Of a DNA stretch of 53,490 nt, positions 39,055 through 42,781 are shown in pieces; the stretch's first letter is position 1; every line of letters begins with the position of its first letter. The stretch covers positions 1-53,490 of the forward strand of contig JAAVFI010000038.1 of assembly GCA_014800815.1 (NCBI GenBank), read 5' to 3'. The DNA comes from Bacteroidales bacterium (lineage in GTDB: Bacteria > Bacteroidota > Bacteroidia > Bacteroidales > Muribaculaceae). A program made the position numbers and the translations under genes. Below the pieces are notes generated by a model. That model searched no databases, had not been told where the DNA came from, and saw only the letters and a list, made by a program, of their open reading frames with translations.

Positions 39055-39609
39055 ATGAAACAAGATACCAATAAACAGTTCTCTGACGCTCTCGCCCTGT
39101 GCAGAAAAGTTTTTGTTGCCAAACTCGGCGACTATGGTCCTTCGTGGCGTATTATGCGTCCGGAGGCAATCACCGACCAGCTTTTTATCAAAGCCAAACG
39201 AATCCGCACGCTGCAGGTTAAGGGTTGTTCTGCAGTCGGGGAGGGTATAATGCCCGAGTTTGTGGGTATTGTCAACTACGGTATTATCGGTATCATACAG
39301 CTCCGACTCGGTTATTCTGATACCAAGGATATTTCGACCGAAAAAGCAATCGAACTCTACGACTCAATTGCCAAGGAGGCCATGGAGCTGATGATAAAGA
39401 AGAATACCGACTACGACGAAGCCTGGCGCAGCATGCGTGTGCTCTCGTACGTCGACCTCATCCTTGCCAAGATTGAGCGCACTAAGGAAATCGAAGACCA
39501 TTGTGGTGAGACGAAGGTGTCGGAAGGCATCGACGCCAACTATTTCGATATGATCAACTACTCGGTATTCGGCTTGATTAAGCTCTCTGAGGATGCAACA
39601 ACCCGCTAA
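39055..39609 (+). CDS. DUF1599 domain protein
   Basis: The 184-residue protein matches DUF1599, a family of unknown function. It contains an internal duplication: [13 protein letters not shown] (near residue 22) with [13 protein letters not shown] after it, and [13 protein letters not shown] (near 116) with [13 protein letters not shown] after it. Each half also has a conserved tail with [15 protein letters not shown] or [14 protein letters not shown]. The repeated pattern suggests a helical nucleotide-pyrophosphatase-like (MazG-type) fold, but this is speculation. It overlaps the next gene by 17 bases, in a gene order seen in other Bacteroidales next to tpiA and folE. Confidence 0.87.
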
Positions 39610-41647
39610 AGACCGCCTGCGCATAGTCGCTGTATGGCTCTGCCGTCTGATTGTCGGATTTACTTTTATCATATCAGGCTGGGCAAAAGCTATCGACCCT
39701 TGGGGATTCCTTATTAAGACGGGAGAATACCTCCAGGTGTGGGGCCTGAACTTGCCTCGAGAGCTCGTGCTTACAGGTTGTGTGAGCCTTGCATGCGTGG
39801 AGTTTTGTACAGGCGTACTTATTGCTACGGGTTCGCTTAAGCGCCTCGCTGTATGGGTTGCGGCGGCTATGATGTCGGTGATGTTGCCCTTGACGCTATA
39901 TATAGCCGTCGAGTCGCCGGTCTCCGACTGCGGTTGTTTCGGCGACTTCCTCATCATATCAAATACGGCTACATTTATTAAGAATGTAGTTCTCTCCGCC
40001 CTGATAGTTTATCTTATCATTGCCGGGCGCAAGGTCAAAGGCATCTACGCAGCGCCTATCCAATGGTTGCAGATTGTGGTGACTGTCGCATTCCCCATGA
40101 TACTCGCTTTCGTAGGATATAATATACAGCCTCTTGTAGATTTCAGGCCCTACAAACTCGGAACAAATCTTTTCGGCGACGCAGGTGAATCCTCAACCGA
40201 GGTCTACATATATCGAAAGGGTGGAGTAGAGAAAGAATTTACTCTTGACGAGCTCCCCGACGACAGCTGGGAATTCGTTGATATGAAATCTGTTGGCGAT
40301 GAGACCAACGGCGGTTTTGAGGTTAGGGATGATAGCGGCCTTGAGATGAACGACGAGCTCTCCGATATGGACGGTCAGGTACTTTATCTTATTGTGTCAG
40401 ACCCTGATGTTCAGTTCCTTTCGCGCGTTCATCTCACCAACATGCTCTATCGTCGTGCTGAAAGTCAGGACGTGACAATGATAGGAATAGCAGGTGCTAC
40501 GGGCAGCACGCTCGAGCGCTGGATTTCGATTGCCAAACCTCTCTTCCCCGTGTATTCAGCAGCTCCGACAGCGCTTAAGCAGCTTGTCCGAGGCGATGCC
40601 GCCCTCGTATATACCGACGGCGGAGAGATTAAATGGAAGCGCACGCTCTCATCGATGAACGCCGATTTTGGTGACGGCGAGTGGGCGTCTGATTCGCTTG
40701 AAAATATCCGGCCCGTGGACGATGGAAGGTATCATCTTATCCTGCTCTCAATATATCTCGCGAGCATGATAGTGATATATCTTTTGAGTCTCTCTCCCAA
40801 AATCTTGCGCCTCTTTGTGGGGATACCAAAAAAAATTCGTAACTTTGCACATTCAAAAAACGAACACAACACTATAACACTTTATCATACAATGAGAAAG
40901 AATATCGTAGCCGGCAACTGGAAGATGAACACCACTGTTCCTGAAGGTGTTGCCCTTGCAAAAGAAGTAAACGAAGCCCTCAAAGGTTTCAAAGCCAACT
41001 GTGACGTGATTATCTGCGTTCCCTTCACCCACCTCTGCCCCGTGGCTGCTGAAATCGACGCAAATGTACTCGGTCTTGGTGCTGAGAACTGTGCTGACCA
41101 CACCTCAGGTGCTTACACAGGCGAAATCTCTGCTCCCATGGTAGCTTCTACCGGCGCTAAATATGTTATCCTCGGTCACTCTGAACGTCGCCAGTACTAC
41201 GGCGAAACTTCTGAGACCCTCCGCGAGAAAGTTGCTCTTGCCCTCGCAAACGGCCTTACTCCCATCTTCTGCATCGGCGAAGTTCTCGCTGAACGTGAAG
41301 ACGGCACCTACAATGAAGTTGTTAAGCGTCAGGTAGAAGAAGGTCTCTTCAACCTCAGCGCTGAAGATTTCGGCAAGATCATCCTCGCTTACGAACCCGT
41401 TTGGGCTATCGGTACCGGCAAAACCGCTACTGCAGAACAGGCTCAGGACATGCACGCTCACATCCGCGCTGTCATCGCTGAAAAGTACGGCAAGGAAGTT
41501 GCAGACAACTGCTCAATCCTCTACGGTGGCAGCTGCAAGCCCTCTAACGCTGCTGAGCTCTTCGCTAAGCCCGACGTAGACGGTGGCCTCATCGGTGGTG
41601 CTGCTCTCAAGTGCGCCGACTTCATGGGCATCGTTAAAGCATTCTGA
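39593..41647 (+). CDS. BT_3928-type (MauE/DoxX-like) membrane protein, open in frame into TpiA
   Basis: The first 433 residues form a membrane protein of the DoxX/MauE-like group. They hold several hydrophobic helices (about 13-36, 60-105, 120-142, 155-178), the segment SDCGCFGD that is typical of MauE-like proteins, a thioredoxin-like domain without CxxC (about 200-365), and a last helix near 382-402. MauE-like proteins are linked to electron transfer to exported proteins. No stop separates this part from TpiA, so the frame is 684 codons long. The join contains a run of eight A (40828-40835): one more A gives a stop at about 40841, and one fewer stops at about 40877. A separate gene ending there is therefore plausible. 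Confidence 0.75.
40814..40847 (+). promoter_or_regulatory. promoter of tpiA inside the upstream frame
   Basis: TTTG (40814-40817), a 22-base spacer, then TAACTTTG (40840-40847). It lies 44 bases before the tpiA ATG and overlaps the last part of the membrane-protein frame. Confidence 0.7.
40892..41647 (+). CDS. tpiA: triose-phosphate isomerase
   Basis: TpiA interconverts dihydroxyacetone phosphate and glyceraldehyde 3-phosphate in glycolysis. From ATG at 40892 the 251 residues begin [16 protein letters not shown] and hold the catalytic lysine in GNWKMN, the histidine in [13 protein letters not shown], the glutamate in [11 protein letters not shown], and [11 protein letters not shown] near the phosphate site. 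Codon bias is strong, as for abundant enzymes. The frame is continuous with the upstream membrane protein, but a good promoter and an ordinary start make separate expression likely. A terminator follows. Confidence 0.95.
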
Positions 41648-41715: not shown

Positions 41716-42204
41716 ATGTCACGACCTCTGATAAATACTCTGTTAGTCGCCGCTCTCTGTGTCGTTCCTGCCGGACGCCTTAGGGCAGAAGTTTCGATTG
41801 TCAAGGAAATCGAAGCCTCGGGCAACGTATCTGTAAATCAGCCTGACGCATTGACTCGTTTGCTCGTCTTCACACCCTCGGCAAATCACGGCGAACACTC
41901 CGAAGACTCTTCCACGAGACATACTCAGAGCGAGGTCCGCACGGGATATCGCGTGCAGGTGTTTGACGACAACAACCCGCGCTCTGCCCGCGCCAATGCT
42001 GAATCGGCCGAGCGTCGTATCAGAGCCGAGTTTCCGCATCTTCGTAGCTACCTCTCTTTCAATTCGCCTTACTGGCGTGTGAAAGTCGGCGACTTCCGCA
42101 CCCGTGCCGAAGCCGAAGCTGCTATGGCTGAGATTCGACAGGCCCTGCCGAGTCTCGCACCTTACCTGCGCGTGATGCGCGATAAAATTAACGTAATCGA
42201 CTGA
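41716..42204 (+). CDS. exported SPOR-domain protein
   Basis: The 162-residue product has a signal peptide ([24 protein letters not shown]) and a low-complexity middle. The C-terminal SPOR domain (about 88-158) includes [31 protein letters not shown] and [23 protein letters not shown] domains bind denuded septal peptidoglycan, so a role at division or in wall maintenance is likely. It ends 1 base before folE. The order tpiA-SPOR-folE recurs in Bacteroidales. Confidence 0.9.
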
Positions 42205-42205
42205 T

Positions 42206-42781
42206 ATGGATAATCACGCAGACGATAAGCGAGTAGCTCAGATTGCTGAGCACATTTCCGCTATTATAGGTCTTCTGGGTGAAGATGTTACTCGCGAGGG
42301 ACTCGTCAAGACTCCCGTGCGTGCCGCCAAGGCTCTATGCTATCTCACCTCAGGCTACTCCGACGATGCTGCACCTCTCATGGAGCAAGCACTTTTTGCT
42401 CACGAGGGCTCACAGCTTATTGTGGTGAAAGACATCGAATTCTATTCGATGTGCGAGCATCATATCCTGCCCTTCTTCGGAAAGGTAAGCATCGGCTATA
42501 TACCCGACGGAAAGATTGTAGGATTGAGCAAACTTGCCCGCATAGTAAATGTTTTCGCCCGTCGTCTCCAGGTTCAGGAACGATTCACTTCCCAGATTTG
42601 CGATGCCGTGAGAGAAACCCTTGGAGCAAAGGGTGTTATCGTAACATGCTCCGGCGAGCACCTTTGCATGAAGATGAGAGGAGTCGAGAAGCAACACTCG
42701 GCCACTACCACCATGCACTACAACGGCGTTTTTGGCGATGACGCATCGCTGCGTGCCGAGTTCTTCGCCGCTATAAAATAA
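42206..42781 (+). CDS. folE: GTP cyclohydrolase I
   Basis: FolE opens GTP to 7,8-dihydroneopterin triphosphate, the first step toward tetrahydrofolate. The 191 residues have [18 protein letters not shown] near the N-terminus. The zinc site has [19 protein letters not shown] with cysteine and histidine ligands, and the second zinc cysteine and substrate region lie in [15 protein letters not shown]. Length and motifs fit the type I (zinc) enzyme. It follows the SPOR gene by 1 base and ends at a terminator. Confidence 0.96.

Follow-up and report, generated by a model that had tools for sequence, protein, structure and literature searches.

The window, the whole 53,490-nucleotide stretch of DNA analysed here, holds a single plus-strand frame of 684 codons (positions 39593-41647) in which a BT_3928-family membrane protein (MP) runs without an internal stop into triosephosphate isomerase (TpiA, or TIM). 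We propose, with a probability of roughly two in three, that this frame is a genuine and recent natural fusion that arose through a one-base change and that would give both free TpiA and a membrane-tethered MP-TpiA. Of the three explanations left standing by the initial annotation, namely a real fusion, slippage on a run of eight A and a sequencing indel, fusion is the best supported because other genomes show it again and certain groups retain it; slippage lost ground, since the A run is tied to a promoter box and the reading phase across the junction is not conserved. On the best-supported picture the window fusion would be among many such events in the order, of which some have been retained, and would leave the ordinary supply of TpiA intact.

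Organization of the fused frame

The MP part (39593-40891, +) comprises predicted helices, a soluble thioredoxin-like domain and a tail, and is followed in the same frame by tpiA (40892-41647, +), which has its own ATG at 40892 and consists of 251 codons plus a stop; the list of open reading frames thus bears out the initial statement that MP has no stop before tpiA. On its way the frame crosses the -7 box and the leader of tpiA itself. The junction carries, all on the plus strand, a possible -33 element TTTG (40814-40817) that follows the published consensus and lies 22 nt 5' of the -7 box, the A8 run (40828-40835) immediately 5' of the box, which doubles as MP codons, the box TAACTTTGC (40840-40848), near which MP stops in many relatives, and the tpiA leader (40849-40891), which in the fused frame serves as an open linker. 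Transcription of tpiA is predicted to start near 40852, judging by where PMC6847099 places the box. Frame arithmetic agrees with two further predictions made at the outset: nine A would bring a stop to 40840-40842, inside the box (MP ending in ...KKNS), and seven A would bring one to 40875-40877. As in the recurrent MP-TpiA fusions described below, the frame is uninterrupted and the tpiA ATG is kept.

The TIM half (residues 438-683) matches PF00121 with 312.4 bits over profile positions 2-244 of 245, above the cut-off, and the MP half (residues 14-353) matches NF045576 (BT_3928_fam) with 270.7 bits against a cut-off of 250. In Pfam the MP half also matches PF07291 (MauE, 52.3 bits) and PF07681 (DoxX, 24.0 bits), both above their cut-offs. 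The window genome gave a single match to the query, so that tpiA looks single-copy. Upstream lies a DUF1599 gene (39055-39609, +), and downstream are a SPOR-domain gene (41716-42204, +), folE for GTP cyclohydrolase I (42206-42781, +) and, further on, transglutaminase-like and NlpC/P60 genes. The MP start shares 17 bases (39593-39609) with the end of the DUF1599 gene, and the MP gene thus overlaps a neighbour or a neighbour's promoter at each end. Scans of the window for Rfam families at gathering scores, tRNAs and tandem repeats found none.

A structure model of the MP half only, built from nine sequences (mean pLDDT 75.8), predicts six helices at residues 5-34, 56-79, 83-107, 124-147, 154-177 and 379-400, with a soluble thioredoxin-like domain within residues 178-378, between the fifth and the sixth. 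MP thus shows the DoxX/MauE-like helices and the thioredoxin-like soluble domain by which we describe the BT_3928 family. In the PDB the model resembles ResA-type thioredoxin folds most closely (E 4.7e-4; TM-score of 0.64 relative to the target; 16% identity); a two-cysteine loop is poorly predicted. The tail (401-433), whose pLDDT falls below 50 from residue 410 on, is basic (six K/R, one D/E). The positive-inside rule would place the cysteine loop, together with the soluble domain, on the outside and the basic tail on the inside, and the fused TIM would therefore sit in the cytoplasm.

The junction in the family of the window

The junction was compared with 20 loci of the same genus, and 49 loci of the same family (f1) were later scored: 45 are separate, two are fused (the window and G127), one overlaps (G072) and in one the two genes lie far apart (G031). 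A TAnnTTTG box is present within 110 nt of the tpiA ATG in 40 of the 45 separate loci, and in 21 of the 45 MP stops no more than 8 nt from the box. In the nearest relative, G045, MP ends in ...AGHAKKNA* after a run of nine A, with the stop at the box; in G020 (...SHTKKND*) and G015 (...LAKKNN*) the run is A8 and the stop is normal. It had been held that relatives with a normal stop and a different A-run length would mean an indel. This describes G045 but not G020 and G015, which combine A8 with a normal stop. All three nonetheless differ from the window by one base in length, and because the spacing from TTTG to the box is 23 bases in each of them versus 22 in the window, a one-base difference somewhere within this stretch appears to have put the MP stop of the window out of frame.

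Among the relatives MP stops at differing distances from the tpiA ATG (-40, -52, -53, -56, -57, -62 and others), and there is therefore no sign of a fused frame being kept in the genus of the window. No second genome of the same species was found, and the nearest species is unfused. Against the fusion reading, fused loci make up just two of the 49 examined in f1. Neutral one-base slips would allow such a count because, in five of the 40 separate loci that have a box, the leader already lacks a stop in the tpiA frame from the ATG back past the box; a single open junction is therefore not improbable. It is the repeated and clustered appearance of the fusion in other parts of the order that exceeds chance, as judged from the sequences compared here.

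The family sample (397 genomes) holds at least one other genome with an uninterrupted MP-TpiA, G127, which belongs to another genus of four genomes. There MP stops in the box in G092 and G111, overlaps tpiA in G072 and is fused in G127. The G072 locus (L110) is intermediate between separate and fused, MP passing through the TAnnTTTG box and ending with a TGA that overlaps the tpiA ATG (ATGA).

Recurrence and persistence of the fusion in the order

Examination of 141 MP-tpiA loci gave 28 fused, 16 overlapping, 96 separate and one far apart; as the loci were selected for adjacency of the two genes or for a long open frame, the ratio of 28 in 141 should not be read as a frequency, and the overlapping class counts one doubtful locus (G465). 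The 28 fused loci are spread over five families. In f28, seven of eight genomes are fused; in f59, 45 of 61 genomes were examined, with 15 fused, five overlapping and 25 separate; in f111, 13 of 15 were examined, with three fused, nine overlapping and one separate; and in f3, one of four genomes is fused. Overlap is the rule in f111 (L249-L257, L124, L125 and L236), where MP ends at, or within, the start of tpiA in nine of 13 loci. A sample of 295 genomes from the order contributed at least seven more verified fusions (G516, G559, G423, G630, G536, G506 and G605), and a sample of the class (149 genomes, of which 144 belong to other orders) gave no fused locus outside the order among the matches listed.

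Several candidates were rejected. The long open frames of G200, G204, G286, G177, G607, G729 and G734 are not fusions, and G818, the sole candidate outside the order among the matches listed, proved separate. In G465 the upstream open frame has just 14 codons, which ruled out a fusion and led to its rescoring as overlapping. The MP of G545 stops 114 nt 5' of tpiA, and the four TGA inside its match are therefore read as a gap and not as recoding. Eleven genomes whose locus gave no MP, or had MP and tpiA apart, were left unscored (G007, G039, G022, G043, G125, G011, G219, G233, G184, G106 and G607), as were loci retrieved with tpiA alone, the MP match being elsewhere or unlisted, and genomes for which no locus was fetched.

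On a tree of MP and TpiA (138 rows, omitting G465, G818 and the truncated G020) the fused label requires 13 changes, 12 of them forced by starred branches, against a mean of 25.8 for shuffled labels; the tree comes from a quick search, its support values are SH-aLRT only, and the changes may be gains or losses. The fusions cluster: seven of the eight f28 loci are fused, and five fused f59 loci form one group (support 94). In several pairs from fused groups the 240 nt that precede tpiA are 41-58% identical (gaps counted), and these diverged linkers remain open and in frame. Differences at codon positions 1, 2 and 3 number 16, 17 and 30 in the linkers of five gap-free fused sister pairs, an excess at position 3 over one third (one-sided p = 0.013) that is due to two of the five pairs; the linkers are close to the MP body (58, 43 and 109). 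Leaders of eight unfused pairs, of which three have no differences and three are overlapping and not separate, give 16, 21 and 21, from which the linkers do not differ significantly (p = 0.27). These counts are at most suggestive of linkers that evolve as coding sequence, and lend the fusion weak support.

Start signals of tpiA and a proposed origin of the fusion

All 28 fused loci keep an ATG at the tpiA start, followed in all 28 by a codon for R, and the preceding codons are variable. An A at -3, which promotes initiation in Flavobacterium johnsoniae according to PMC6847099, is present in 23 of the 28 fused and 74 of the 96 separate loci. The last 18 nt before tpiA average 62% A in fused loci, versus 27% in the MP body, and 53% A in separate loci; at least nine of the 18 are A in 26 of 28 fused and 72 of 96 separate loci. 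The signals being alike in the two classes, fusion has not erased them, and the ATG, the A at -3 and the A-rich leader would show retained signals and not a new device. Because the ATG is kept in every fused locus, we infer that free TpiA starts within the fused frame and is probably still made from fused loci.

A plausible route to the fusion starts from the tight packing of the two genes, through which the MP stop often lies at the tpiA promoter. Loss of one base relative to the nearest relatives, within the stretch that contains the A run, would then put the stop out of frame (the direction of the change is itself presumed), and with the leader open by chance the MP frame would continue into tpiA. 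As the tpiA box and ATG are retained, a short transcript of its own would yield most of the TpiA, unfused; on the longer transcript, ribosomes translating MP would continue into TpiA and give a second product, its TpiA tethered by a flexible tail at the cytoplasmic face of the membrane.

Alternative explanations

Were the open junction a sequencing or assembly indel, the true length would be that of the relatives, MP would stop in the -7 box and the locus would consist of two ordinary genes. The extra A and normal stop of G045 speak for this, as do the error-prone nature of homopolymers and the state of the window genome, which is in 79 contigs. However, of 69 ORFs of at least 100 codons taken from 80 kb of the syntenic contig of G045, 47 have a match in the window and none is split between frames, although the window ORFs contain six other homopolymers (T7, A7 or G6); nine of 86 G015 ORFs also matched, again with none split. 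A8 itself occurs only here within the window ORFs of at least 100 codons. The intact frames lower the chance of an indel error without removing it. In addition, a natural one-base toggle is seen in another family, where the fused G605 and its overlapping sister G703 show a net single-base difference. This is the same kind of toggle as that between the window and G045, whose one-base difference is therefore not shown to be a sequencing error. We regard an indel as unlikely. It is more doubtful still that the frame is open in the DNA and yet only a neutral by-product, rapidly degraded and without a role. The interspersion of fused, overlapping and separate states on the tree would suit such a by-product, as would the 96 of 141 selected loci that are separate and the retention by tpiA of its own signals, but the persistence of the fusion with diverged open linkers in f28 and f59 suggests that it is tolerated or useful there, which bears on the window only indirectly.

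The possibility that slippage on A8 acts as a regulated device, giving both products from one gene, appears very improbable. Slippage at about 15-25% on runs of nine and eleven A is documented in PMC4256274, and an extra A in the RNA would indeed bring the MP stop into frame. Against this, E. coli RNA polymerase gave no detectable slippage below eight A, and hardly any signal with the A runs that were assayed, in PMC6260861. Among the loci compared, the A run also accompanies the promoter box whether or not the MP stop is at the box, and the varying position of the stop relative to the tpiA ATG preserves no frame arrangement. Programmed slippage calls for a long enough run and a conserved frame arrangement; here A8 is at the threshold and the arrangement is unconserved, so that the earlier suggestion of slippage making both products is unsupported. 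Beyond a genuine recent fusion, we entertain tentatively a nested two-product locus, in which selection in several lineages of the order would keep a membrane-tethered TIM, joined to a thioredoxin-like redox membrane protein, beside free TpiA initiated at the internal ATG, and the window would capture the birth of the fusion, the old promoter box still lying inside the new linker. If true, a glycolytic step would be physically tied to a membrane thiol-redox system.

Relation to known fusions

TIM fusions of two other kinds are known. In the PGK-TIM of Thermotoga maritima and T. neapolitana, as in MP-TpiA, TIM is fused to another protein that exists on its own as well, but the partner is a soluble glycolytic enzyme and not a membrane redox protein (PMC7729029). 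The window frame scores 302 bits against NF010569 (bifunctional PGK/TIM; cut-off 883), through its TIM half only. The eukaryotic TPI-GAPDH resembles MP-TpiA in its broad but patchy distribution, for which independent fusion events are discussed, and differs in having TPI at the N-terminus, a glycolytic partner and mitochondrial targeting signals (PMC3527533). Genes that slip on A9 or A11 (PMC4256274) likewise have a poly-A run whose frame would close at a different run length, whereas the run in the window is shorter, stands beside a promoter box and has an unconserved frame arrangement.

The MP half is a member of the BT_3928 family NF045576, whose model spans the MP part alone; the model is of the type 'equivalog_domain', and fused members may have been known to its authors. 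No description of an MP-TpiA fusion was found in the open-access literature searched, as represented by listings and passages. The expectation that a fusion would be new therefore holds for that literature and fails for genomes, in which the fusion recurs; genome databases may already contain MP-TpiA proteins named for either half. TIM is the textbook soluble, cytosolic enzyme, and one would not expect to see it joined repeatedly to one and the same membrane redox protein. The junction states (separate, stop at the promoter, overlap and fusion) form a natural series on how fusions of neighbouring genes start and persist, and bear also on whether internal initiation supplies the free enzyme. 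A frame that continues into a neighbouring gene is not necessarily an error.

Promoter box and A run

That the junction carries the tpiA promoter, as first proposed, agrees with the -7 type box at 40840-40848. An A run of at least five lies within 14 nt 5' of the box in 33 of the 40 separate f1 loci that have a box, and A8 looks like a part of the promoter. In 268 kb of the window genome, G000 (the window and 11 further stretches, L152-L162), 10 of 78 TAnnTTTGC sites have such an A run, compared with 1.1% of 14-mers along the same DNA and none of the 89 sites found for three control motifs of rearranged sequence, which were unmatched for intergenic position, so that base composition may explain part of the excess. 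A runs of at least five are thus enriched about tenfold before TAnnTTTGC over 14-mers of the same DNA (the control not being matched for intergenic position), and the A run is a possible extended promoter element. The pattern of A run and box agrees with the TAHHTTTG box and with an AT-rich motif near -18 given for F. johnsoniae in PMC6847099 and the -33/-7 promoter consensus given for Bacteroides in PMC7366714.

A sigma-70 promoter and terminator scan of 40600-41000 found no terminator and a single promoter-like site, on the minus strand. In f59 none of the 25 separate loci has a TAnnTTTG box within 110 nt of the tpiA ATG, and promoters therefore differ among families. In four loci from the genus of the window (L050, L051, L052 and L053; G007, G039, G022 and G043) in which MP was not found directly upstream of tpiA, a TAANTTTGC box lies a few tens of bases 5' of the tpiA ATG.
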